Shown here: positions 21,341-38,004 of the stretch, piece by piece
Position numbering within the stretch: the stretch's first letter is position 1
Layout of the letters: each line of letters opens with the position of its first letter
IMG/VR virus record: IMGVR_UViG_3300007960_000061
Location: 1 to 38,004 of that record
From: a virus
Strand: one strand, 5' to 3'
Length of the DNA: 38,004 bases
The notes under the pieces: model-generated
Databases searched by the model: none
The model's input: the letters and a program-made list of their open reading frames with translations, nothing else
Told to the model about the DNA's origin: nothing
Translations under genes and position numbers: made by a program

Positions 21341-23763
21341 GGATCCCGCTCCCGCAGGTCGGGCTTTCGACGAACACGACGCCCCTCATCGGTCCGGGCC
21401 AATCACCCGGCGTCAGCGGCGACGTGACCGGCCGGCAGCTGCAGCAGCTGGGCCAGAGCATGCTCGGCGCCGGCACGGCAGCGATGGGCATCGCGTCCGA
21501 GCTCAGGCTCGAGCACGATACGACGATCACCAAGGAGGCATACACGCAGCTCGCCGACTACGCGACCGAGATCCTTGAGAACCCCCAGAGCGGCTACTTC
21601 ACCAAGCAGGGGAAGAATGCCGTCGGCTACGAGCGCGCCAAGGCGCTCGGCTCGATCGAAAAGCGCATGCGCGAGATCGAGCAAGAGCTCGGCACCGACG
21701 TGGCCAAGGGCATGTTCCGCGAGCAGTCGAAGAAGGCTTTCGCGGACATCAAGCGAAAGGTGTATGGCCACGAGGCCACCGAGCGCCGGGTGTGGTCGCT
21801 GGGCCAGACCAGGGCCATGCAAAGCCAAGCGGCACGCGACGCGATCGCGGCCGCCATTCGGGGCGACACCCCGGTCGACGTGGCCGACGGCGCAGAGCTC
21901 GCTGGGGCCGAGGAGGATCGCGCCTACGGCCGCCAGAATCCCGAGACGTCTATCGGCACCACCGGGAAGTTCGTGGCTCCTGGGCAGCCTCAGGGCCCTC
22001 AGGGGCCACAGGGTCCGCAGGGCCAACAGGGCCAGGAACCCGGATCCCTGATCGGCAAGACGTATGCTCAGGCCGTAGCCGAAGACAAGGCTCGCCGGCA
22101 GGGGCGGCCGTCCTGGCAGATCCACCTCGACACGGCTACCGAGCAGGTCGAGGAGGAGTCTCGGATGCTGGGCGAGCCGGCCGAACTCAGGCGCGAGCGG
22201 GTGCTGAAGCTGAAGACCGAGGTCCACACCGGCATCGTCCGCGGCTTGCTTAGCCAGGGCCGGACGAAGGAAGCGCGCCAGTGGATGGAGAAGGTCCCCG
22301 AGAAGGACATGGCCGTGGGGGCCCGCCTGGAGCTGCAGAAGATTCTGAAGGACGCCGACCAAGCCGACCGGTCCTACTCCGTGGCCAACGAGATCATCGA
22401 CCAGCTGGCCCAGGAGGACGCCGCCGCGGCCGCGGCCGCAGAGCAGCCCAGCGAACCCTACGGACCCCCGATCCCGACGATGGGCCCCCCGGTCCCGGGC
22501 ACGTGGGAGGATGAGCTCCGTCGCAGCAGCAAGGCCGGCGGCGCCGGCGCAGGGATCAACGACGAGCTCGACACCACCACCATGCTTTCGCGCGCCAGCG
22601 CCGAACTTCGTCGCCGGTTCGAGGCCGGCGAGATCGACGCCCGCGAGCGCGACATGGCGATGGCGAAGATCAGGGAGGACCACTCGATTCGCGTCGGCCA
22701 GTGGAACGCCGAGGCCCAGGACACCCTGCGGAAGACCGAGCAGTGGTTCGAGGCGAACCCGGACGTGCGAGACCCGGACTCGCCGTCGTTCCCGCCCGAG
22801 CTCCGCGAGCAGCTGAACAGGTTCGGGTCGATGGACTCGGCCAGGAAGATCGGGCAGGCCCGAGGTAACCGCGTGACCGACCCCGCCGTCTACCGTCAGA
22901 TGCTCGAGGACTACGAGAGCGGTGCGTTCGTCAACATGTTGCCGTCGCAGCTGTTCAACCGCTACTACGCGCACCTGGGCCCGACCGAGTGGAACGAGGC
23001 GCAGAGCTACCTTGCTATCGCGAACAGGCCGGTCGCGGTCTCGAGAGGTGGTGGCGGCAGCAGCAAGCCACCCCCGGACGACGACTTCTGGGGCGTCCAA
23101 GATCAGATCCTCGAGCAGGCGATCGCCGCGAAGATCATCACGGCGCGCACGGCGGACGGCCGGCCGAAGCCGGACTCGGAGGAAGAGGCCGTGCTGCTCG
23201 TGGATTATCGCGCCGAGGTGCAGAACCGATGGAACGTCGAGCGCGCCGCGCTCATGGCGGCCGGCAAGCCGGCGGAACTGACGACGGCGCGCAAGGTCGA
23301 GATCGCGAGCGATGTGGCGTTCGACAAGCAGTGGGCGAAGAGATACGACATCGCACCGGGCTTCTTGTTCGGGCTCGGTGACTTGATGGACTCCGACGAG
23401 CCCTACTGGACGTGGCAGAGGGACATCCCCGAAGACGACAGGGAGACGCTCTACGTCATGACGAAGTTTGGCACCGAGGTGCGCATCCCCGAGATCCCGT
23501 CCGGCGCTCGCCAGGAGATTCAAGACGCGCACCGGCTGTCGCTCGTGCCTCGTGACCAGCGCGGGGCGGCGGAGGCCGAGCTCAGGAGCTACGGTTGGGG
23601 CAATAAGGACGAGAAGAAGGTGCATCGCGACAAGATCGAGGCAATGTGGATGCGGCTCGGTCTGGTGACGCGCAGCCCGAGGAATAACGTGATCGCCGAG
23701 AAGTGGGAGCGGATGCGGCGGCAGTCTGGCTCGCACTGGTACAAGTGGGGCGAAGAGAAGTGA
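21337..23763 (+). CDS. internal virion protein, gp15-like, with short Gly-Pro-Gln repeat
   Basis: An 808-residue, mostly helical, highly charged protein in the place of T7 gp15, which forms the periplasmic part of the ejection tunnel. ATG 21337 is chosen over GTG 21331 because GGAGGG (21323-21328) would be two bases from the GTG but eight from the ATG. Helical regions with RLEHDTTITKEAYTQ and EQELGTDVAKGMFREQS occupy the first 200 residues. A collagen-like PQGPQGPQGPQGQQGQ stretch follows at about 210-235, then long helices. The Ala-rich EDAAAAAAAE region near 360 marks a hinge. A loose Asp/Pro-rich segment precedes the last 250 residues. Role inferred from order and composition. Confidence 0.75.
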   Translation: MRIPLPQVGLSTNTTPLIGPGQSPGVSGDVTGRQLQQLGQSMLGAGTAAMGIASELRLEHDTTITKEAYTQLADYATEILENPQSGYFTKQGKNAVGYERAKALGSIEKRMREIEQELGTDVAKGMFREQSKKAFADIKRKVYGHEATERRVWSLGQTRAMQSQAARDAIAAAIRGDTPVDVADGAELAGAEEDRAYGRQNPETSIGTTGKFVAPGQPQGPQGPQGPQGQQGQEPGSLIGKTYAQAVAEDKARRQGRPSWQIHLDTATEQVEEESRMLGEPAELRRERVLKLKTEVHTGIVRGLLSQGRTKEARQWMEKVPEKDMAVGARLELQKILKDADQADRSYSVANEIIDQLAQEDAAAAAAAEQPSEPYGPPIPTMGPPVPGTWEDELRRSSKAGGAGAGINDELDTTTMLSRASAELRRRFEAGEIDARERDMAMAKIREDHSIRVGQWNAEAQDTLRKTEQWFEANPDVRDPDSPSFPPELREQLNRFGSMDSARKIGQARGNRVTDPAVYRQMLEDYESGAFVNMLPSQLFNRYYAHLGPTEWNEAQSYLAIANRPVAVSRGGGGSSKPPPDDDFWGVQDQILEQAIAAKIITARTADGRPKPDSEEEAVLLVDYRAEVQNRWNVERAALMAAGKPAELTTARKVEIASDVAFDKQWAKRYDIAPGFLFGLGDLMDSDEPYWTWQRDIPEDDRETLYVMTKFGTEVRIPEIPSGARQEIQDAHRLSLVPRDQRGAAEAELRSYGWGNKDEKKVHRDKIEAMWMRLGLVTRSPRNNVIAEKWERMRRQSGSHWYKWGEEK

Positions 23764-26700
23764 CGAACCACTACGACGACATCCTGCAGCGGAAGCCCGA
23801 GCCGATCGTGCCGGACCTGTCGCTGCAGGATCCTCGGCGCACGGCGCAGGGCATCGACCCCGGCATCGACCCCGGCCTCGAGGACCTGCTGCAATCCACG
23901 CTGCAGGAGGCGGCGCAGCTGGACAACGTCCAGTCGATGAACCCGCAGGGGCCCGTCGACTCGTCGCCGGGCAGCGGCCAGATGGACCCGGCGGCCGCGA
24001 TGCTCCTCGAGGACATCGCGAAGGCCGACAAGCTGAGCGACGCGGCCGTACTGCGTGCGCTCCACGCCGCGAGCAAGGTCAACCCCGAAGTCGCCGGCGA
24101 GGCGCAGCGGCTCGGCATCGAGCTCGGCATGGACGCGGGGCTGGTCGAGAGCAACCTCGAGAAGGCGCGCGCGCTCTGGACCCGGAGGCAGACCGAGGCG
24201 CTGTTCGCGTCCGGCGGCAACGAGCAGACGCTGCGCGCCCTGGTCGACCCGGAGTTCGCGCGCATCGCCAGAGACGACGTCGAGAACCTGTCGTTCCTCG
24301 AGAACCTCTGGCAGCAGCGCAGCGCGGCAAAGCTCGAGGAGCAACAGTCGCTGCTGTGGGCGAAGGTGATGTATGGCGGCGGCGACGATGCGGACATCGC
24401 CAAGATCGACACGATCAGCCGACAGCTCGCCGAGCTGCCGCCGGACTCGGACGTGGGTGGCTTTGTCGAGAACCTCGCCTATGGCGCAATGCGGACGTGG
24501 TCCGGCATGGAGGCGACACTGCTGATCTCGCTCGGCGCGGGTTTAGCCACCGCCGGCGCGGGCGCGGCGTATGGCATGACCAGCGGCCCGCTCGCGCCGG
24601 CGACCGCGACGGCCGGCGCCTTCACCGGGTTCAGTGTCGGCTTCTTCGGCTCGATGGGCATCAACTCGGCGATCCGTGAGGGCGGCGCAGCCTACGGCTC
24701 GATGATCGAGATGGGCATCGACCCCGCAATCGCGCGCCGGTGGTCGACCGGCGTCGGGATGGTCAACGGCGCGCTCGAAGTGTTGTCGGCCGGCGTGCTC
24801 AGCCAGCCGTTCAAAGCCGAGGCCAAGCGGATTCTGACGCGGAAGGTCGCCAAGGACATGCTGACGAGGACCACGCGCACCGCGGCCGCCACCCGGTTCG
24901 CGTTGACCTACGCGAAGGGTCTCGGGTCCGAGGTCGCTACCGAGGTCGCGCAGGAGATCAGCAACGTGCTCGGCGAGTCGATAGCGCGCTGGGAGCAGCA
25001 AGGCATCGACCCGACCACGCTCAAGGAGACCGACCCGTTCTTCGAGCGCATGAGCGGCATCATCACCGAGACCCTGCGCGGCATGGCTCTGCTCGGCCTG
25101 CCCGGTCCGCTGATGCAGCTGCGCACCGACATGAAACGAGCTCGCCAGGGCGCCTTCGACAAGAAGTGGGTCGAGAGCCTGGGCAAGCAGGTTGAGAAGT
25201 CGAAGACGCGGCCGCGAAACCGGCGACTGTTCGCTCGCTTCCTCGAGCAGCTGGCCGACGGCACCGACGCGGACAGACTCTACTTCGACGTAAAGGAGTT
25301 CAAGGCGAAGATGGAAGCGGTCGGCATGACGCCGGCGCAGCTTGCCGATATTGCGCCTGAGGTCGCGGGCCGACTGCGCGAAGCCGAGAAGACCGGCCTC
25401 GTCGAGATCCCGACCAGCGAGTTCGGCGCGGAGTTCCTGGCGACTGACTTCGGCAAGACGCTGATCCCGCACGCGCGCGTCACCCCTGACGGCGTGACGC
25501 CGCAGGAGCTCGCGAACGTGCAGAAGCGGGAGATCGACGAACAGGCCAAGAAGGCCGAGGAGCTCCTGAAGAAGTTCGGCGAGAAGGACAGCGAATACAA
25601 GAAACAGGCTGACGCGATCGAGCAGACGTTCGAGCGGGAGATGCTCGAGGCCGGTCGCAAGCCGGCCGAGGCGAAGGCGGGCGCGCGCTACTACCGCAAC
25701 CTCGCGCTGATCCTCGCGGCCGAGGAAGGCATCTCGCCGGCCGAGTGGCAGCGCAAGGCCGGTGTGGGCCTGCTGAGCGAGAGCGCATTCGCCGAGCTCA
25801 ATCTTGACGCCGATAGCGTCGCGCACATGCGCTTGTGGTTCCGCAAGAGCGCCGTCGTCGACAAGGAAGGTCGGCCGCTGGTGGTCGAGCACTTCGGCTG
25901 GTTCGACGAAACGACTGACGTCCCCGACAGCGGCATGCATTTCGGCACGGCCAAGGCAGCGAAGGATCGCGCCGCGAGCAAGCGGATGTCCGACCGCAAC
26001 GTCGAAGTCTATGAGGATCCCGAGGAGCAGGGTCGGTGGCTCTACTCGGTCGACGGCGAGCAGGATGTTGACAGCTACGGGTCGAAGGAAGAGGCCGAGA
26101 TGGCGGCGCGGGCCGACATGGAGGACCGGGGCCTGCTCAGAGACGACGAGGGCCGAACAACGCGTGCCTACCTTCGGATCGAGAACCCGAAGCGCGTCGA
26201 GGATGCCGGCGGCGACGCCGACGCATGGGCGAAGCTGATCGAGGAGGCGAAGGCCGAGGGGCACGACGGGATCGTCTACACCAACCAGCACGAGGACGTA
26301 GGGTCCGACAGCTACGTCATCTTTGAGCCGCAGCAGGCGAAGTCGCTTGACAGCGCGTTCACCGAGTCGCCGAAGATGCTCGAGCAGCTGAAGGACGACC
26401 CCACCCAGGAGGAGTCTGATGCATCCATCGACAAGGCGATCGACAAGGCCGCCGACGCAACCCCTCCACACGAGATCGAGCTGACCGATGTTCTTCGAAA
26501 GAAGGCGCGCGAGTTGGCCAGCCAGAACAAGAGCGGGTTCGGCAAGGTCTGGCGCAGCCTACCCGACGACGAGGTCGTGGCCTTGGTGCACACCAAATCG
26601 AAGGGGAAGACTGCAATGCAGCTGCTGGCTAGCCGCATGGCGACCCTGTGGCATCTGTTGCGAAATCTCCCCCGTGTTTCCGAGGTAGCCGCCGTCGCTC

Positions 26701-29700
26701 GCGCTGGTCGCTCGAAGCGCGGGTGGTATCGCTACAGCCAGAAGGCTCTGGAAATCATCTTCGGAGAAGACGCGCCAAGGTTCGCCGCGCTGCTGGCCGC
26801 AACGTCGCCACAGACCAGCGTCGAGGCGAACCTGCTCAACACGCTGAACATCTGGCGCAACTGGAACAAAGCCGGTCGACCGACCGACCCGCGCGTGATC
26901 ATGCGCATCCTGGGTGAAAGTGTTCAGGGAACGAAAGGCGTGGAGAGCGTCCTGAACGCGTGGGTCAACAACAGCATCGTGGCGCTGACGATGAAGGATC
27001 CGAAGCGGATCGTGCTGTCTGGTCCCAAGGTGAACAGCTTTATGTTGAACCTGCTAGGCTGGTCCAACGAGCTCACGAACGACGCCTGGATGGCTAACTA
27101 CTTCGGCGTCGACCAGAACATCTTCGCCACTGACGACTCAGTTCACCTGCCCGGTAAGGGCCCTGGCTACATCGCTTCGTCTACTCGCCAGAGGCAAGCT
27201 GCGGCGTCTCTCAACTGGAACCCGATGGAGGTGCAGGAGACGGTCTGGTCGTTCGCTAAGGCGCTCTACGAGAAAGCCTCGCGGATGAAGACGACAGCTG
27301 TCGAGCTGCTGAAGAGCGGCGGCTTGACGCACGAGGACATCAACGCGACGCCGGACTTCGAGAAGCTGTTCCTCTCGCCGGAATATCGCCACTTGGTGGA
27401 GGCGGCTGGATACGGCAAGCAGCTGGAAGAACTAGCGAAGGACGTCGCGTCGCGTGCCGAGGAGCCTGTCCAGGGCCCCGTGTATGACGCCAAGTCACCA
27501 GATGCCAAGCACCTTCTGCGAGCCGCGAAGCGACTCGACAAGTTGGCCGAGGTCCGTCGCTTCGAAAAGACGCGCACCGAGGTGCTGGTCAACCTGTCGG
27601 CAGCGACGAGTAGCATCCCCGGACTGAAGGAGCTCGCCGACGAAGCCAACAAGGGCGACCAGGAGGCGGCGGTGCTACTGCAAGACATCGCAGCCGACTC
27701 GCTGCGCTACCTCCTCAGTTCAGTCAAGTCGGCCAAGGTCGAGGTCAACCGCGTCACCGGCCTATACGCCGGAGACCTGGAACCATCGCTACAGCTGAGC
27801 GTGTCGTTCCAGAACAAGGATCGAGCTCGCGCTCTTGTTGCGCTGCGCCAGTTCGCTCGCAACTTCAACCAGCAGCAGTTCCACGTCCGATCGCACGAGG
27901 TGACCGGCAAGGCTGGCAAGGTCTACCCAGACGGATCGTTCAACACGATTGTCCGACGGTTTGAGCTCAAGAAGGAGATGTCGCGCGCCGAAATCGAGGC
28001 CGTGGCCAGGGAGGCCGGACTAGTCGGATTCACAGTGCATGAAAATGCACTGGAGGTATACTTTGTTGGAGACCCAACCGATGCCCAAGCCAGCAAGCAG
28101 TTCGTCGAAGCAACCCAACGAGCCCGAGTCGCTCTTGGAAAGAACATCGAGAGAGTTGGACGCTCTATTGAGCGACTCTGGGCTTACGGTGACGGATTCG
28201 GCGCCACCCACGGATATGACTCGATCGAAGGTGAGTTTCGTCCCCCGAAGGGAGACCAAGCAGCCAGGACCGCCCAGCGAATCGCAAGCCGACTCGCCGG
28301 CCGAAAAGTAGTCGGCTCGAAGCAGGCGGCTGTCATCACCGAAGAGCAGCGGGCTCTGCAGACCAGAATCGCGGAAGCCTACGGTCGATTGGAGCTCGAC
28401 CGACTCGACGACCCGATTGTCCGTCGGGCATACGAGGAAGCTGCCAACGAGATCGTGCGCCAGTTCAAAGCGTTGCCGATCAAGGTCGAAGTGTTCGAGG
28501 GCAAGGGTGAGCCCTACGGCGGCAAGGGGATGTCCGCGAAGATGCGCAAGGACATCAACGCCCGCAACCACCTCTTCATCTTCGCGACGATCCCTGATCA
28601 GTTCGGGCCTCCGGGTGTCACCTACAAGGATCACCCGCTGCTCGCTGACAGTGGTCTCAAAGACATCAACGGTCGACCGCTGCTGATCAACGATCTCCTG
28701 CGCGCTGTCCACGACTACTACGCGCACACGATGCAGACGACGACGTTCGGCCCGCTCGGCGAAGAAGCAGCGTGGCGGACGCACATGGAGATGACGCGCA
28801 GCCCATGGGCTCGGTGGGCGATCACAAGCGAGACGCGCGGCCAGAACAGCTGGGTCAACTTCAACCGCGAGGTCGACCCCGAGTCTTCGCTGAGCAAGCG
28901 ACCTTTCTCCGAGCAGAAGGTCGACCTGCTCCCACTGGAGTTCGTCGTCACCGGCATCGAGTCGGTCGATAGATCACTGCTGCAGCTACCGGGATCTGAT
29001 GGTTTGGTCCTGCAGCAGTCCGCCGCAGAACAAGAAGCCAGTGGAGCTGGACAGGCTGATCGTGCAGGCGATACGACGGCCGCCGCAGAACAAGCAGCCA
29101 GTGAAGCCGGACAGGTTCCTGGCGCAGACGTTCAAGGTGTCGAACAGCGAGAGGTCAACGCCAAGCGAGCAGGACGATACCTCCCCGATCTGAGGACGAT
29201 CCTGCTGGACGACGAGAACGCGACCCCCTCGACGGTCTTCCACGAGCTGTCGCACTTCTGGTTCTTCAGCGTGCTCGACATGGCTGCCCGAGGGGTGGCC
29301 AGCAAGCGCCTGCTCGCCGACATCGACACCCTGCTGCGGTGGTTCAAGATCGAGGGCAAGACACCCGAGGAACGGCTCGCCAACTTCCAGGCAATGGACT
29401 TCGAGGCGCAGCGCCGGCACCACGAGACGCTTGCCTACAACTTCGAGAACTACCTGTTCGACGGCAAGGCGCCGACCAGCAAGCTCGAGCGCGTGTTCGC
29501 CAAGATCCGCACGTTCCTGCTGAACACCTACGAGTCGATCCGCGACGAGCTCAACGCGATCTACAAATCGCAGTTCGGCACCGACCTTCCGGGCCTGACG
29601 CCCGAGGTGCGCGCGGTGTTCGACCGCATGGTCGCGACGCGCAGCGCGGTGGCGAACGCCGAGGCCGCGCGCGCCATGCGCCCGATGTTCCAGACGCTCG

Positions 29701-32700
29701 AGGAGTTCACGGCCGCGGGTTACACCGAGGAGCAGTGGGCAGAATATCTGGCCGTGATCGAGGAGGCGCGCGAGGAGGCCGAGACCGACCTGCAGGCGGC
29801 GACGCTGCGGCAGCTGAAGTGGTTGCGCAACGCGCGCGGCCGGTTGCTCAAGCAGAAGCAGAAGGAAGTCGAGGGCATCCGCCGCGCTGCGCGCAGCAAG
29901 ATGCAAGACGAGGTCGAGGAAGAGCACGTCTACCTCGCGATGGGGATCGTCCGCAGCGAGAAGGCGGCCGGCAAGATCCTCGAGTCGGATGTCGACCGTG
30001 TGCTCGGCGACATGCCGGAGAAGGAGCGCGAGAAGATCAAGAAGAAGCTCGGAACCGGACGCAAGGGACTGCTGTCGAAGCAGGGGCTGCGCGCCGACAA
30101 CGTAGCCGACGCGCTCGGCTACCGCAGCGGCGAAGAGATGCTGCGCGAGTTCGCCAACGCGAGGCCAATCGACGATGAGATCGAGATGCGCACGTCGCAG
30201 TATCTGCTCGATCAGCACGGCGAGCTCCTCGATCAGCGCATGATCGAGGAAGCGATCGACCGCGCCCTGCACAAGGAGGCGCGGGCCCGGTTCGTCGCCG
30301 CCGAGCTCCGGTTCCTCGAGGGGATTCGCCGGCCGGCGCGCGTGCAGATCGCGGCCGCGAAGGACGCGGCGCGCCGGGCGCTCGGCGGCCGCAGGATCAA
30401 GGAGCTCCGTCCCGACAGGTTCTCGCAGGCCGAGGCCCGCGCCGCGAGGCAGGCTGAGCGGGCGCAGAAGAAGGGTGACACCAAGGCGGCCGTCGAGGCG
30501 AAGCGGCAGCAGCTGCTGCTCAACCAGATGGTCGGCATGGCATACAAGGCGCGCGATGAGATCGGCAAGATGCTGGGCTCGTTCCGCAAGCTGATGCGCA
30601 GCAACGACCAGCTCGCAAAGATGGGCAACGTCGATGTGCTGCAGGCTGCCAAGTGGATCCTCGCGCAGTATGGGCTGGCGACGCAGACCGCGGCCGAGCG
30701 CGCGACCGACTACCTGAGCCTGCTGCGCGAGTATGACCCGGCGCTGTTCGCTCGTCTGGAGCCGGAGCTCGCGAAGGCCCAAGCCCGCGGCGCCGAGCTT
30801 GGCACGCTGAAGAACGGCGCGCCCAACTGGCGCGAACTCACGCTCGACGAACTTCGCGTCGTCCACGACACGGTCGACACGCTGGTCTACCGCGCGCAGC
30901 GCGACCAGAAGCTCCTGGTCGAAGGCAAGATGGAGGAGCTCGAGAGCGTGGTCGACACGCTGATCGGCGAGATCAAGATCCCCGAGGAGGTCCACGGCGA
31001 GAGCGGCGCGCTCACCTACTGGCAGCGCGCGAAGATGCGGCTACTCGGCACGCGCGCCAACCTCATAAAGCTCGAGCACTACCTGCGCGCGCTCGACGGC
31101 GGAAAGCAGGGACCGTTCCTCCGCTACCTGTTCAATGAGGTGCGCGCCTCGGTCGACGCCTACCGCACCGACGCGGCGGTCTACGTCAAGAAGCTCGTCG
31201 AGATCGTCTCCGAACTCCGCCGCAGCGGCCTGCTCGAGGACGGCAAGATCGACGCGCACGAGCTCAACTACACGTTCGGCGAGGGCAACCGAGGCGGCGG
31301 CATGGCCGAGCTCTTCGGCTTGCTGCTGCACATGGGCAACTCCGGCAACAAGGAGCGGGCCCTGGTCGCCGGCCGCGGCGGCGTCGTCGACCCGAAGACC
31401 GGGCTGATGTCGAAGTCGTGGGCCGACCTCGACGCCGAGGGCAACTTCGACTACTCGAGGTGGGAGGCGTTCCTCGACAGGATGAAGAGGGAGGGCAAGC
31501 TGAAGCCCGAGCACTTCCGCGCTGCGCAGCGGGTGTGGGATCTCATGGAGGAGATCAAGCCGAAGCTGCAGGAGGCGCACCGCGAGCTCGAAGGTTACTA
31601 CTTCAAAGAGGTGCAGGCCGACCCGTTCACCGTCGAGTTCCCTGACGGCACGGTCGAAACCTACCGCGGTGGCTACGTGCCGGCCACACGCGACACCGAC
31701 CTGCTGCCGCCGGGCGAGCTCAAGCTGACGGTGCAGGAGATGCAGCAGGACTTCTTCAATGGCCTGCCGAAGGTGCCGGACGGCTCGACCAAGGAACGCG
31801 CGGCCCGCTACACCAAGCGGCCGCTCGCCATGGACGTAAATAAGATCGCTGCGCACATCGACGAGACGATCCGCTACGCACACGTCCAGCCGCGCGTCGC
31901 CGACGTTCTGCGCATCATCGGCAACGAGCGGTTCGCCACGGCGATCACGCGCGTCGACCCGAACATGATCCGCGAGCTCATCATCCCCTTCCTTGAGCGC
32001 GCGGTCCGGCAGTCGGTCTACAGCAAGGGTGTCGACCCGACGCAGGACTGGTTCTGGAAGATGGTCCGCAGGAACACCGGCGTGGCAATCATGTTCGGCA
32101 ACGTCGTCAACACGCTGCAGCAGGTGACCGGCATCAGCAACTCGCTGATCTACGTCAAGGCTCGGTACCTGCGCAGCGCGCTCTACACCTACATGCGCAA
32201 GCGCGGCGACTTCGTCGACGCGATCATCGAGAAGTCGGAGTTCATGGACGACCGGCTGCGCAACCAGATGCTCGGCCTAACGCAGGATCTGCGCGAGCTC
32301 GCGCTCGACCCGTCGACGTTGGCGCACGTGCAGTCGTGGACCGGCAAGAAGGCCTACTTCATGCAGACGTTCACGCAGAACCAGGTCGACATCGTGACGT
32401 GGTGGGGCGCCTACGAGCAGGCTATCGCTAACGGCAAGCAGGAGCTCGAGGCGACACGCGAAGCAGACAGCACGGTTCGGTTGGCGCAGGGTTCGTTCAA
32501 CCCCGAGGACGTGGCCAACTACGAGACCGGCACGCCGGTCGCGAGGACGTGGAACCAGTTCACGTCCTACTTCAACACGGTGCTCAACCAGATTGCGTTC
32601 GCTCGAGGCAACAAGGCTCGGGCTATCGCGCTGTCGTTCACTGTGCCGATGGTCATCTCGCAGGCAATCGCGATGACGTTGTGGGGCCAGTGGGACGACG

Positions 32701-33116
32701 AGGACGACGACGGCCACGTCGACACGGTGTTTGACCTGTTCGTCGGGTCGCAGCTTGGCGGCGCGGCCGCGATGGTTCCAGTCTACGGCCCCGCGCTCTA
32801 CGGCCTGATGTCGCAGGCGCTGAGCAACCGCGAGTTTGGCGACAAGGTCGCGGCGTCGCCGGCGATGGTCACGGTGCAGCGTTCGCTCGCCGGGCTCTTC
32901 GGCCTCGCCGCCGGCGAACAGCCGACCGGCCGCCGCGTGCGCGACGGGCTGACGGCCGTGGTCCTGATGGTTCCGGGCGCCGGCATCATCGCCCCGGTGA
33001 TCCGGCCGACGGGCTACCTGATCGACGTGGCCTCGGGCAAGGTAAAGCCGCGCGGCGCGTGGGATGTCGCGACCGGCATCATGACCGGGCGTGCGTCTGA
33101 GGGCTCGCGCCGGTAG
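23760..33116 (+). CDS. giant polyvalent ejection protein (ART, glycosylase-like, zincin, helical domains)
   Basis: A 3118-residue protein in the place of T7 gp16 and probably ejected with the DNA. GTG 23760 overlaps the previous stop. Gly/Ala-rich hydrophobic helices at 250-306 suit membrane insertion. Residues about 680-862 resemble the ADP-ribosyltransferase of polyvalent proteins (LWFRKSAVVD, MHFGT, HDGIVYTN, SYVIFEP). About 895-1225 is a helical, DNA-glycosylase-like phage domain (AATSPQTSVEANL, GPKVNSFMLNLLG, NDAWM). About 1527-1735 contains VHDYYAHT (His1651, Asp1652, His1656) and ETRGQNSWVNF. A 60-bp repeat codes the linker. A zincin follows, HELSH (His1828, Glu1829, His1832) with Glu1889 or Glu1896 as third ligand. 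The rest is helical, with hydrophobic stretches after 2955. Domain names are by motif reading; the assembly role is inferred. Confidence 0.9.
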   Translation: MTNHYDDILQRKPEPIVPDLSLQDPRRTAQGIDPGIDPGLEDLLQSTLQEAAQLDNVQSMNPQGPVDSSPGSGQMDPAAAMLLEDIAKADKLSDAAVLRALHAASKVNPEVAGEAQRLGIELGMDAGLVESNLEKARALWTRRQTEALFASGGNEQTLRALVDPEFARIARDDVENLSFLENLWQQRSAAKLEEQQSLLWAKVMYGGGDDADIAKIDTISRQLAELPPDSDVGGFVENLAYGAMRTWSGMEATLLISLGAGLATAGAGAAYGMTSGPLAPATATAGAFTGFSVGFFGSMGINSAIREGGAAYGSMIEMGIDPAIARRWSTGVGMVNGALEVLSAGVLSQPFKAEAKRILTRKVAKDMLTRTTRTAAATRFALTYAKGLGSEVATEVAQEISNVLGESIARWEQQGIDPTTLKETDPFFERMSGIITETLRGMALLGLPGPLMQLRTDMKRARQGAFDKKWVESLGKQVEKSKTRPRNRRLFARFLEQLADGTDADRLYFDVKEFKAKMEAVGMTPAQLADIAPEVAGRLREAEKTGLVEIPTSEFGAEFLATDFGKTLIPHARVTPDGVTPQELANVQKREIDEQAKKAEELLKKFGEKDSEYKKQADAIEQTFEREMLEAGRKPAEAKAGARYYRNLALILAAEEGISPAEWQRKAGVGLLSESAFAELNLDADSVAHMRLWFRKSAVVDKEGRPLVVEHFGWFDETTDVPDSGMHFGTAKAAKDRAASKRMSDRNVEVYEDPEEQGRWLYSVDGEQDVDSYGSKEEAEMAARADMEDRGLLRDDEGRTTRAYLRIENPKRVEDAGGDADAWAKLIEEAKAEGHDGIVYTNQHEDVGSDSYVIFEPQQAKSLDSAFTESPKMLEQLKDDPTQEESDASIDKAIDKAADATPPHEIELTDVLRKKARELASQNKSGFGKVWRSLPDDEVVALVHTKSKGKTAMQLLASRMATLWHLLRNLPRVSEVAAVARAGRSKRGWYRYSQKALEIIFGEDAPRFAALLAATSPQTSVEANLLNTLNIWRNWNKAGRPTDPRVIMRILGESVQGTKGVESVLNAWVNNSIVALTMKDPKRIVLSGPKVNSFMLNLLGWSNELTNDAWMANYFGVDQNIFATDDSVHLPGKGPGYIASSTRQRQAAASLNWNPMEVQETVWSFAKALYEKASRMKTTAVELLKSGGLTHEDINATPDFEKLFLSPEYRHLVEAAGYGKQLEELAKDVASRAEEPVQGPVYDAKSPDAKHLLRAAKRLDKLAEVRRFEKTRTEVLVNLSAATSSIPGLKELADEANKGDQEAAVLLQDIAADSLRYLLSSVKSAKVEVNRVTGLYAGDLEPSLQLSVSFQNKDRARALVALRQFARNFNQQQFHVRSHEVTGKAGKVYPDGSFNTIVRRFELKKEMSRAEIEAVAREAGLVGFTVHENALEVYFVGDPTDAQASKQFVEATQRARVALGKNIERVGRSIERLWAYGDGFGATHGYDSIEGEFRPPKGDQAARTAQRIASRLAGRKVVGSKQAAVITEEQRALQTRIAEAYGRLELDRLDDPIVRRAYEEAANEIVRQFKALPIKVEVFEGKGEPYGGKGMSAKMRKDINARNHLFIFATIPDQFGPPGVTYKDHPLLADSGLKDINGRPLLINDLLRAVHDYYAHTMQTTTFGPLGEEAAWRTHMEMTRSPWARWAITSETRGQNSWVNFNREVDPESSLSKRPFSEQKVDLLPLEFVVTGIESVDRSLLQLPGSDGLVLQQSAAEQEASGAGQADRAGDTTAAAEQAASEAGQVPGADVQGVEQREVNAKRAGRYLPDLRTILLDDENATPSTVFHELSHFWFFSVLDMAARGVASKRLLADIDTLLRWFKIEGKTPEERLANFQAMDFEAQRRHHETLAYNFENYLFDGKAPTSKLERVFAKIRTFLLNTYESIRDELNAIYKSQFGTDLPGLTPEVRAVFDRMVATRSAVANAEAARAMRPMFQTLEEFTAAGYTEEQWAEYLAVIEEAREEAETDLQAATLRQLKWLRNARGRLLKQKQKEVEGIRRAARSKMQDEVEEEHVYLAMGIVRSEKAAGKILESDVDRVLGDMPEKEREKIKKKLGTGRKGLLSKQGLRADNVADALGYRSGEEMLREFANARPIDDEIEMRTSQYLLDQHGELLDQRMIEEAIDRALHKEARARFVAAELRFLEGIRRPARVQIAAAKDAARRALGGRRIKELRPDRFSQAEARAARQAERAQKKGDTKAAVEAKRQQLLLNQMVGMAYKARDEIGKMLGSFRKLMRSNDQLAKMGNVDVLQAAKWILAQYGLATQTAAERATDYLSLLREYDPALFARLEPELAKAQARGAELGTLKNGAPNWRELTLDELRVVHDTVDTLVYRAQRDQKLLVEGKMEELESVVDTLIGEIKIPEEVHGESGALTYWQRAKMRLLGTRANLIKLEHYLRALDGGKQGPFLRYLFNEVRASVDAYRTDAAVYVKKLVEIVSELRRSGLLEDGKIDAHELNYTFGEGNRGGGMAELFGLLLHMGNSGNKERALVAGRGGVVDPKTGLMSKSWADLDAEGNFDYSRWEAFLDRMKREGKLKPEHFRAAQRVWDLMEEIKPKLQEAHRELEGYYFKEVQADPFTVEFPDGTVETYRGGYVPATRDTDLLPPGELKLTVQEMQQDFFNGLPKVPDGSTKERAARYTKRPLAMDVNKIAAHIDETIRYAHVQPRVADVLRIIGNERFATAITRVDPNMIRELIIPFLERAVRQSVYSKGVDPTQDWFWKMVRRNTGVAIMFGNVVNTLQQVTGISNSLIYVKARYLRSALYTYMRKRGDFVDAIIEKSEFMDDRLRNQMLGLTQDLRELALDPSTLAHVQSWTGKKAYFMQTFTQNQVDIVTWWGAYEQAIANGKQELEATREADSTVRLAQGSFNPEDVANYETGTPVARTWNQFTSYFNTVLNQIAFARGNKARAIALSFTVPMVISQAIAMTLWGQWDDEDDDGHVDTVFDLFVGSQLGGAAAMVPVYGPALYGLMSQALSNREFGDKVAASPAMVTVQRSLAGLFGLAAGEQPTGRRVRDGLTAVVLMVPGAGIIAPVIRPTGYLIDVASGKVKPRGAWDVATGIMTGRASEGSRR
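29020..29115 (+). repeat. 60-bp imperfect tandem repeat in the giant gene
   Basis: Two copies with a 60-base period: 29020-29055 and 29080-29115 differ at three of 36 bases, and the similarity fades over the following 24 bases. In the gene's frame they give an Ala/Glu/Gln/Gly-rich linker (AAEQEASGAGQ and AAEQAASEAGQ). They lie exactly between the His-Asp module and the zincin, and so mark a junction of two building blocks. Confidence 0.85.
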
Positions 33117-33874: not shown

Positions 33875-33902
33875 TTGCAACCATCTGCAACATCTCTAGG
33901 AT
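33875..33902 (+). promoter_or_regulatory. early promoter 1 with GCAAC/GCAAC operator
   Basis: TTGCAA (33875-33880), 16 bases, TAGGAT (33897-33902), eight bases before ATG 33911. GCAAC occurs twice, at 33877 and 33887, exactly ten bases (one helical turn) apart, and a further TTGCAA stands at 33851. The same layout recurs at 35640 and 36828. AGGA within the -10 block could also act as a ribosome binding site. Confidence 0.6.
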
Positions 33903-35565: not shown

Positions 35566-35605
35566 GGGGGCCCCTGGTTGGGACTTCCGGGGGCCCCCAT
35601 TTTTT
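35566..35605 (+). terminator. rho-independent terminator
   Basis: GGGGGCCCC (35566-35574) pairs with GGGGCCCCC (35590-35598) across a 15-base loop. After a single A, six T (35600-35605) then CTTC follow. This is a classic intrinsic terminator that ends the first early operon before the next promoter at 35640. Confidence 0.85.
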
Positions 35606-35639: not shown

Positions 35640-35667
35640 TTGCAACGGTCTGCAACATCTCTAGGAT
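35640..35667 (+). promoter_or_regulatory. early promoter 2 with GCAAC/GCAAC operator
   Basis: TTGCAA (35640-35645), 16 bases, TAGGAT (35662-35667), seven bases before ATG 35675. GCAAC at 35642 and 35652, ten bases apart. It is nearly identical to promoter 1, including the bases between the boxes and the start, and stands 35 bases after a terminator, so it must serve the DpdA-like gene alone. Confidence 0.65.
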
Positions 35668-35674
35668 CCACGTC

Positions 35675-36823
35675 ATGAGCAACACCCACAGCGTTCTCCG
35701 CGGCCGCGAAGTCACTCGCCAGCAGGTTCTCTCGATCCTCGACGGGATCGACGCCGGCCGGCTCAACCCGGCCGACTACGGCTACGGTCCGGCCCGCCGC
35801 TGGTTCATCCGGCACAACGGCCGCAGCTACCCCAGCAAGGCCGTGCTTGGCATCGCCGCCGGCATGCGCGCCAGCGAGTTCTTCGGCGGCGTCGCCGAGA
35901 CGACCCGCGTCCTGCGCGCGCTCGGCTTCGATCTCCGCATGGCGGACAACACCGCGCAGGCCGATGCCAACATCGTCGAGATCGCGAGCCTGATCCGGTC
36001 GCTGAACGCGAGCGTCGTCGAGAAGCCGTGGAACCTCGAACCTGCGCCGGCCGCCTACTACGCCAGCGGCAGCAACCGCCCCACCGAGATCCGCGGCCTG
36101 GGCTGGGCCGGCGCCGACATCGGCTGCGTCGCCGGCGAGCTCAGCGAGCAAGCCCTGGTCGAGCTGGAGGCCCTGGCTGGCACCGACGTGGTGGTGTTCG
36201 TCGACAGCGGCGCCTTCTCCGAGGTCGACCGCGAGCTGCGCGTCGTCAAGCCGATGGTCGACGCCGACTGGCGCCGCATCCTGCGCGTCTACGAGCGGCT
36301 CGCTCGCGCGCTCGGCTCGCAGCTCACCGTCGTCGCCCCCGACCGTGTCGGCTGTCAGGCGACGACCCTGACCCGCCTGTTCAACTACCGCGTCGAGCTC
36401 AACACCCTCGCCCAGCTCGGCGCCCGCGTCCTGGTCCCGATCCAGAAGGGCGCCGAGTCACAGGTCGACTTCGCCTGCCGCATCAACGCGATCCTCGGCG
36501 CCGACAGCTGGGTCCCCGCGATGCCGTGCAAGAAGGGCGCAACGACCGCCGAGGAGCTCGCTACGTTCGTCGCGCGCTTCCAGCCTCGCCACGTTCACCT
36601 GCTCGGCCTCGGCGTTCGCAACCGCAACGCCGCCGACTACGCCGCGGCCTTCGCCGGCACGCCGACTAGCTACTCGATGGACAGCTGCTGGATCGCTGCG
36701 AACGCCGGCCGCAGCGAGGCACAGCCCCGCCGGTTCACGGCCGTGCGTGACGTCGCTGCCCGGCTGGGTGGCACGGCACTCTCAACCATTGCGATGCTCG
36801 CCTGCTTCGCCCACAACATCTAG
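35675..36823 (+). CDS. tRNA-guanine-transglycosylase/DpdA-like protein with McrA-head-like N-terminus
   Basis: A 382-residue protein. Residues about 10-90 (VTRQQVLSILDGIDAG, then NGRSYPSKAVLGIA and LRALGFDLR) resemble the head domain at the N-terminus of ScoMcrA-type restriction enzymes. Residues about 130-360 look like the TGT barrel: FVDSGAFSEV with Asp177 in the place of the DSGGFQ motif, PDRVGC (Asp223), VLVPIQKG, the HLLGLGVRN loop, and YSMDSCWIA with Asp336 as candidate nucleophile. Phage DpdA proteins of this superfamily exchange guanine in DNA for a 7-deazaguanine, which blocks host restriction. No precursor-synthesis gene (queC, queD, queE, folE) is in view, so host preQ0 or distant genes would be needed. 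A tRNA-directed role is possible. The superfamily is fairly sure; the substrate is inferred. Confidence 0.7.
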   Translation: MSNTHSVLRGREVTRQQVLSILDGIDAGRLNPADYGYGPARRWFIRHNGRSYPSKAVLGIAAGMRASEFFGGVAETTRVLRALGFDLRMADNTAQADANIVEIASLIRSLNASVVEKPWNLEPAPAAYYASGSNRPTEIRGLGWAGADIGCVAGELSEQALVELEALAGTDVVVFVDSGAFSEVDRELRVVKPMVDADWRRILRVYERLARALGSQLTVVAPDRVGCQATTLTRLFNYRVELNTLAQLGARVLVPIQKGAESQVDFACRINAILGADSWVPAMPCKKGATTAEELATFVARFQPRHVHLLGLGVRNRNAADYAAAFAGTPTSYSMDSCWIAANAGRSEAQPRRFTAVRDVAARLGGTALSTIAMLACFAHNI

Positions 36824-36827
36824 CGGC

Positions 36828-36855
36828 TGGCAACCTGCCGCAACACCCCTACCTT
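36828..36855 (+). promoter_or_regulatory. early promoter 3 with GCAAC/GCAAC operator
   Basis: TGGCAA (36828-36833), 16 bases, TACCTT (36850-36855), ten bases before ATG 36866. GCAAC at 36830 and 36840, again ten bases apart. The hexamers are degenerate, but the box spacing is the same as in the other two. TGGAG just before the ATG may be a ribosome binding site. Confidence 0.5.
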
Positions 36856-36865
36856 CTGGAGCCCC

Positions 36866-37156
36866 ATGAACAGCGTTCACCGTGAGATCGCCCAGATGCA
36901 CGCCGAAGCGCGCGCGCTGCACCCCGACAACCACCTGCCGATCGCCTTCTGCGACTGCCGACTGGCCACCGCCTACCGCCAAGCGAAGCAGCGCGCGATC
37001 AGGCGCCTGCCCAACCCGCCGCTGATCGCCGGCGGCCAGGGCCGCTCGGCCGCCGACGTCGAGGACGCCGTGAGCGGCGTGCTTGTGTGGTGTGCGATCC
37101 TCCTTTCCTTCGCCGTTGTGGCCTGCATTGCGTGGGCCTGCGGCACCTTCAACTGA
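36866..37156 (+). CDS. small C-terminal membrane-anchored protein
   Basis: A 96-residue protein. The soluble N-terminal part is His/Arg-rich (EIAQMHAEARALHPDNHLP, FCDCRLATAYRQAKQR). The C-terminus is one membrane helix (residues about 69-94, GVLVWCAILLSFAVVACIAW). A tail-anchored early protein like this may act at the host inner membrane, for example in exclusion or as a docking factor; nothing shows which. Promoter 3 lies just upstream. Confidence 0.7.
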   Translation: MNSVHREIAQMHAEARALHPDNHLPIAFCDCRLATAYRQAKQRAIRRLPNPPLIAGGQGRSAADVEDAVSGVLVWCAILLSFAVVACIAWACGTFN

Positions 37157-37180
37157 CCGACACGACTGACTGACTGAGCT

Positions 37181-37972
37181 ATGGCATACGACCTGAGCAC
37201 CGTGCAGCGTTCGACGCTGCTTCCCCCGCGCCTCGTGATCTACGGCGTCCCCGGCATCGGCAAGACCACGCTCGCTGCCTCTGCCCCGAACCCGATCTTC
37301 CTGCCCGTCGAGGATGGCCTCGGCCAGCTCGAGGTCGACACCTTCCCGCGACCGCAGTCGTATCACGACTGCATCGAAGCGGTGGGGTCGCTGATCGAAC
37401 AAGACCACGACTACCGCACGCTGGTGGTCGACTCGCTCGACAAGCTCGAGCCGCTGCTGTGGGACCACGTCATCGAGACGGTGCCCCACGAGAAGGGCAA
37501 CCGCGTCGAGCGGATCGAGCAGTATGGCTACGGCAAGGGCTACACGCACGCGCTCAACGAGTGGCGCAGCCTGCTCCGTGGCTTCGACGTGCTGCGCGAA
37601 GAGCGCGGCATGACGATCGTGCTGATCGCCCACAGCGCCGTCGTCAAGTTCGACACGCCGGACAGCGATCCCTACGACCGCTACCAGCTGCGCCTGCACA
37701 AGTCGGCAGACGCGTGCGTCAGCGACTGGTGCGACGCGCTGCTGTTCGCCAACTACAAGGTCGCCGTCGTCGACAAGCACGGCAGCGACAGGAAGCGCGC
37801 CGTCGGCAAGGGCGAGCGCCTTCTCTACACGCAGGAGCGCCCGTCGTTCAGGGCGAAGAACCGCTACTCGATGCCCGAGAGCCTGCCGCTCGACTGGGCC
37901 GAGCTCGAGCCGTTCCTCTTCTCGGCCGCCAAGAAGGCGACCGGCAAGCGGACGAAGCAGGCCGCGGAGTAA
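37181..37972 (+). CDS. Sak4-like RecA-fold ATPase (AAA_24 type)
   Basis: A 263-residue P-loop ATPase of the phage recombination type. Walker A is GVPGIGKTT with Lys28; Walker B is LVVDSLD with Asp84. Following signatures are EWRSLLRGFDVLREERG, a sensor-like IVLIAHSAVVKFD and the C-terminal CDALLFANYKVAV. This is the pattern of Sak4/AAA_24 proteins, which are thought to anneal single strands in phage replication and recombination. It would work with the RusA-like resolvase at the other end of the window, and probably with a single-strand binding protein beyond the edge. No Shine-Dalgarno is evident before ATG 37181; a short GACT repeat precedes it. Confidence 0.8.
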   Translation: MAYDLSTVQRSTLLPPRLVIYGVPGIGKTTLAASAPNPIFLPVEDGLGQLEVDTFPRPQSYHDCIEAVGSLIEQDHDYRTLVVDSLDKLEPLLWDHVIETVPHEKGNRVERIEQYGYGKGYTHALNEWRSLLRGFDVLREERGMTIVLIAHSAVVKFDTPDSDPYDRYQLRLHKSADACVSDWCDALLFANYKVAVVDKHGSDRKRAVGKGERLLYTQERPSFRAKNRYSMPESLPLDWAELEPFLFSAAKKATGKRTKQAAE

Positions 37973-37983
37973 CCGCGACCACT

Positions 37984-38004
37984 AACCACAACCACAACCA
38001 CAAC
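37984..38004 (+). repeat. AACCAC tandem repeat at window end
   Basis: The hexamer AACCAC occurs three and a half times from 37984 to the last base, after the stop of the Sak4-like gene. It probably continues past the edge. Such short arrays sit in intergenic gaps of some phages; a regulatory or origin role is only a guess. Confidence 0.8.

Follow-up and report, generated by a model that had tools for sequence, protein, structure and literature searches.

The fusion gene and its genomic setting

The stretch of viral DNA analysed here (the window) is 38,004 nucleotides long. An open reading frame at 35675-36823 on the plus strand, with an ATG start and AGGA 8 nt upstream, encodes a protein of 382 residues. 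The earlier note had read this protein as a TGT/DpdA-like enzyme fused to a head domain of the ScoMcrA type, with the motifs DSGAF, PDRVG and SMDS contributing Asp177, Asp223 and Asp336. These positions are correct in the sequence and both domain assignments are upheld by the profile and fold tests given below, with the reservation that, among alpha/beta barrels, TGT is not picked out by fold comparison on its own. The features of the locus are as follows.

35566..35605, plus strand: intrinsic-terminator-like hairpin with T-run (folding)
35642..35663, plus strand: repeated 22-bp promoter/operator-like motif before the fusion gene (exact-motif search)
35675..36823, plus strand: head-DpdA-like fusion gene, 382 aa (open reading frame with ATG and Shine-Dalgarno; AlphaFold2 pLDDT 87, pTM 0.78)
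35675..35944, plus strand: N-terminal ScoMcrA-type head domain, residues 1-90 (sequence, profile and Foldseek matches)
36038..36709, plus strand: C-terminal DpdA/TGT-like (beta/alpha)8 barrel, residues ~122-345 (profile comparison and AlphaFold2)
36203..36217, plus strand: DSGAF motif, with Asp177 as the equivalent of the general acid/base Asp of TGT/DpdA (62-member alignment, profile)
36338..36352, plus strand: PDRVG motif, with Asp223 aligned to the Asp of DpdA LDVIG (profile alignment, 62-member alignment)
36596..36598, plus strand: His308 of HLLGLG, matching the DpdA His196 region HGFG (alignments)
36674..36688, plus strand: SMDSC motif, with Asp336 as predicted nucleophile at the end of strand 8, parallel to DpdA VDSSSW (alignments, AlphaFold2)

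The AlphaFold2 model, computed with 62 aligned sequences, displays an alpha/beta head (residues 1-90), a loose linker (about 91-121), a barrel (122-345) and a C-terminal helical tail. Upstream, the gene is separated from the preceding genes by a hairpin at 35566-35598 (-30 kcal/mol, z=-2.3) followed by TTTTTT; with a loop of more than 8 nt, it escaped a simple scanner. No sigma-70 consensus promoter was found before the gene. The 22-bp motif GCAAC-N5-GCAACAnCnCTA, built of two direct repeats one helical turn apart and then TAnnnT, lies on the plus strand at 33877-33898, 35642-35663 and 36830-36851, without further exact copies in the window, and in each case 11-14 nt before a start codon (33911, 35675 and 36866). 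It looks like a candidate phage-specific promoter or operator. The suggestion that the gene has its own promoter after a terminator stands as to the terminator-like hairpin with its T-run and the presence of a repeated upstream motif, but not as to a promoter of the sigma-70 consensus type.

An independent contig (L001) overlaps the last 1509 bases of the window (36496-38004) as well as its first 1047 bases, with 100% identity. As it bridges both ends, the genome of the phage can be closed to a circle of about 43.8 kb, and the segment outside the window apparently encodes, by eye, a DUF669-like protein, a helicase and a primase-polymerase. A sequencing artefact as the origin of the fusion gene was rejected, its C-terminal part being 100% identical in an independent contig and the family being conserved.

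The barrel and its relation to phage DpdA

Residues 122-345 are predicted with high confidence (pLDDT >90 over most of them) to form an eight-stranded alpha/beta barrel, in agreement with what the motifs had led one to expect of this half. The predicted strands cover residues 127-130, 149-152, 174-177, 217-220, 251-255, 280-284, 306-310 and 332-337, and Asp177, Asp223, Gln257, His308 and Asp336 come, in this order, on or just after strands 3, 4, 5, 7 and 8. Across an alignment of 62 relatives Asp177, Asp223 and His308 are invariant (62/62 each), while Asp336 is kept in 61 and Gln257 in 54; the relatives having been collected with patterns over the DSGAF and APD-VG motifs, one of which sufficed per locus, only His308 and Asp336 are free of search selection. 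The catalytic pair of the DpdA family, the Asp of DSGxF and the nucleophile Asp, is therefore present as Asp177 and Asp336. His308, a conserved residue beyond those of the earlier note, aligns with the H-G-F-G region and is the counterpart of DpdA-family His196 (phage 9g numbering), itself absent in DpdA2.

Comparison of the family profile with that of eight annotated phage DpdA proteins gives a probability of 95-96% (E=2e-8 to 4e-9) with the motifs in register. The aligned DpdA proteins display the same motif order: DSGAFS, D-V-I-G, H/G-E, G-G, H-G-F-G and S-V-D-S-S-S-W. In a control set where the eight DpdA were entered singly together with 74 E. coli proteins, several TIM barrels among them, seven of the eight rank above all 74 decoys, the best of which reaches 8%, and a reversed DpdA sinks to 0.4%. 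The hhalign alignment with DpdA covers 133 columns and ends before Asp336, with the DSGAF region giving much of the score. Identity to known DpdA is about 16%, and DpdA has other residues behind the PD motif and in the surroundings of Asp336.

Several broader searches were negative. With the single sequence, Pfam, PHROGs and NCBIfam returned no usable match to the barrel; Pfam TGT matched neither the window protein nor its 61 relatives; tblastn of the protein found no match in 50,697 phage records; and the profile gave chance matches only among PDB sequences. Identity with a canonical tRNA TGT was rejected, there being neither a Pfam TGT match nor, after Asp336, the zinc motif CxCxxC...H that follows the nucleophile Asp in tRNA-TGT.

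Fold comparison is less discriminating. With the whole model, a search of the PDB lists generic barrels (aldolases, beta-eliminase, UVDE) and no TGT among the 50 matches listed, and for this reason it is on sequence profiles and the order of the motifs that the assignment to DpdA is based; a structural search of viral proteins returned two phage queuine-tRNA-ribosyltransferase entries, not in first place, among them the DpdA of Mufasa8 at E=1e-3. The preference for generic barrels would suit a TIM-barrel enzyme from outside the TGT superfamily, its DSG and PD motifs having become TGT-like by convergence, as would the fact that E. coli TGT alone is not recognised by the family profile (1.7%, not significant, aligned at DSGGF; DpdA itself obtains 1.2%). 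Such convergence is nevertheless highly improbable, for DpdA stands above all other barrels tested by profile, the reversed control is negative, and the order and strand positions of all the motifs agree.

The head and its association with the barrel

Residues 5-90 are genuinely related to the head of ScoMcrA (PDB 5zmm, residues 5-94). Taken by itself, the window protein matches 5zmm weakly (E=0.01) and mREase_IV of PADLOC at E=2.4e-4, the match being confined to residues 12-93. A profile of eight heads, by contrast, retrieves residues 5-94 of 5zmm at E=1.2e-15 and nothing else credible. Modelled alone, the head has a pLDDT of 90.5, and chains of 5zmm are the top three and the only convincing matches of this model in a Foldseek search of the PDB. 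The head-like nature ascribed to the N-terminal ~90 residues is thus confirmed by both routes. ScoMcrA is a type IV, phosphorothioate-dependent restriction endonuclease, and the fusion protein shares with it this small N-terminal head only: the sulfur-binding domain (SBD), SRA and HNH of ScoMcrA-type enzymes are absent, the remainder of the AlphaFold2 model being barrel, so that a modification-type enzyme replaces the nuclease part. The protein is therefore two-domain, best described as a new DpdA-like branch carrying a restriction-enzyme head. Plasmid relatives of the head belong to proteins annotated as HNH endonuclease, DUF3427 protein and AAA ATPase, and Vibrio phages have a DUF3427 protein that matches the head weakly.

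Head and barrel are joined in six distinct proteins (that of the window and those of L012, L013, L014, L015 and L020; L016 and L017, copies of L015, were left out of the count), the other five being 46-50% identical to the window protein. In two further loci (L023 and L024) head and barrel have a gene each, and the stop of the head gene overlaps the start of the barrel gene as ATGA, which commonly indicates translational coupling. A tree of the barrels unites the fused forms in one clade (support 0.91) with the split-gene pair as its sister (0.88), a pattern that a single acquisition would explain. Given this clade, and the split genes still linked in the sister lineage, head and barrel belong together functionally; to judge from these sequences, the fusion is a conserved architecture and not a one-off. 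Apart from structural genes in two distant relatives, no other gene of the window recurs near fused or split relatives in the stretches examined, which implies that the module moves between unrelated phages. Directly 3' of the fusion in L013 (8810-9205) lies a relative of nucleoside 2-deoxyribosyltransferase (E=6e-6, just under the cut-off).

That a head otherwise met in HNH endonucleases, helicase-type or ATPase proteins should appear in a phage protein might evoke an anti-restriction decoy, in which the head would mimic that of a host ScoMcrA-type enzyme and disturb its assembly or targeting, the barrel only helping. This is very unlikely, as the barrel keeps its full catalytic set, most relatives have no head, and the two parts are linked even as two genes. 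Furthermore, the ScoMcrA head takes no part in dimer contacts, and its function is given as unknown (PMC6224610).

Partner domains, precursor supply and a proposed base exchange

Relatives of the barrel were found first in plasmids (best E=7e-17) and then at 79 viral loci and 20 bacterial genome loci; for the collection scans an alignment of nine sequences was too diverse, and one of three sequences worked. They form a widespread, so far unnamed family of phages and plasmids, where the barrel may stand by itself, form part of a mid-size protein or be embedded in one of 1000-5000 aa. Fusions with DUF6884 exist in both orders (L038 5139-9098, L039 5862-9239, L042 7161-9269 and L006 5698-7446), that of plasmid pRK1-3 being reversed with respect to L038, L039 and L042. 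The DUF6884 stretch of L042 has a second match, to YaaA/DUF328 (E=8e-4); DpdC, an enzyme that processes DNA-borne preQ0, has been placed in that family (PMC12839542). These DpdC-like fusions lend indirect but independent support to a 7-deazaguanine reading.

Other partners are varied: inorganic pyrophosphatase in L025 and L055, LPD1 in a Cupriavidus plasmid, and both ART-PolyVal and a PP-loop domain of the PAPS-reductase type in a single protein of 1909 aa (L028 5352-11078). In L046 (6558-10088) one protein unites a C5-cytosine methylase, the DpdA-like barrel and a Mom-like domain, which by domain content would put three DNA-modification activities in one chain. In the Alteromonas plasmid L003 (2778-8344) a PAPS-reductase gene, an unknown gene, a DpdA-like gene and a DndB-like gene stand in a row; this is not a general rule, since across the phage relatives no DndB-like gene exceeds the cut-off. 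PAPS-reductase-type genes are above the cut-off in 7 of 50 family records, and nothing is argued from them because such genes are common in phages.

Relatives of the barrel thus reside inside polyvalent proteins of phages and conjugative elements (ART-PolyVal, LPD1, 1000-5000 aa), whereas the barrel of the window sits in a small two-domain protein. The words DpdA, queuine and deaza do not appear in the main text of the 2017 survey of polyvalent proteins (PMC5512222). The window itself codes, at 23703-33116 on the plus strand, for a polyvalent protein of 3137 aa with LPD22, DUF7178 and a weak ART-PolyVal match. A TGT homologue, sometimes fused to an acetyltransferase (GNAT), is also known in a DNA-conflict setting from the BRC systems; unlike the phage fusion gene, these are chromosomal defence operons with HerA/PglZ, and the likeness rests on their published description (PMC12839542).

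The closest parallel is phage DpdA itself (Enterobacteria phage 9g, BcepGomr, the Mycobacterium phage Rosebush group). Both are phage-encoded TGT-like barrels, with the Asp of DSGAF(S), a second Asp then V/I-G, the His of H-x-G and a D-S near strand 8 in common, but the fusion protein is set apart by its low identity, its additional head, its lack of a Pfam or PHROGs model and the absence of preQ0 genes. On this last point the statement that no synthesis genes are in view holds genome-wide: neither of the two records that close the genome contains recognisable QueC, QueD, FolE, radical-SAM or YaaA/DUF328 families. QueC appears, weakly, in 1 of 50 family records, which leaves the family without a genomic link to 7-deazaguanine supply. 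Genes for preQ0 synthesis are common beside DpdA and not required. Phages that possess DpdA and no synthesis genes have been described as a group, and a use of host preQ0 has been suggested for them (PMC6884629).

It may be asked whether a DpdA/TGT relative would here exchange bases with another partner, be it another modified purine, or tRNA or RNA in place of DNA. The distance from known DpdA, the deviating residues behind the PD motif and near Asp336, and the missing QueC in 49 of 50 records would fit, as would the PP-loop ATPases (PAPS reductase type, with unknown product) that adjoin or are fused to some relatives and the nucleoside 2-deoxyribosyltransferase relative next to one of them. 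We consider this alternative rather unlikely: the acidic set and His308 agree with those of DpdA, fusions with DpdC-like domains speak for a 7-deazaguanine route, and the zinc motif of tRNA-TGT is missing.

The reading that we favour, with a probability of about 0.6, is that the phage DNA undergoes a base exchange of the DpdA kind that depends on the host and for which the head provides the positioning; what we infer as to its chemistry, DNA substrate, base, head role and benefit would run as follows. Asp336, at the end of strand 8, would attack C1' of deoxyguanosine and release guanine. A 7-deazaguanine, most likely preQ0, would then settle in the guanine pocket, kept there by Asp223 and Gln257, and replace guanine with Asp177 as the acid/base. 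This preQ0 would not be made by the phage but taken from its host. The head, otherwise a part of modification-dependent restriction enzymes, would bind or position DNA for the barrel, and the DNA of the phage would in this way withstand restriction by the host. The presence of 7-deazaguanine in the phage DNA may reasonably be inferred from the relationship with DpdA, and the fusion enzyme probably disguises that DNA by means of a host-derived base.

A broader and distinctly tentative view would see here one branch of an undescribed, widespread base-exchange family of phages and conjugative plasmids, making no precursor of its own and freely swapping partners, with the restriction-enzyme head in the present case and, in others, a nitrile-processing domain like DpdC, a methylase together with Mom, or a PP-loop ATPase. 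As part of giant polyvalent proteins the barrel might accompany the DNA into the cell and alter its bases on arrival; in the present fusion the head might sense how the DNA is modified and direct or restrain the writing.

If base exchange of this kind is indeed what these proteins perform, 7-deazaguanine-type DNA modification would extend to many phages and conjugative plasmids that standard models miss, as witnessed by 62 members without a TGT-type Pfam match. The fusion would furthermore offer a first functional handle on the ScoMcrA head: with one module common to a modification-dependent cutter and a base-modifying enzyme, what the head recognises becomes a testable question.
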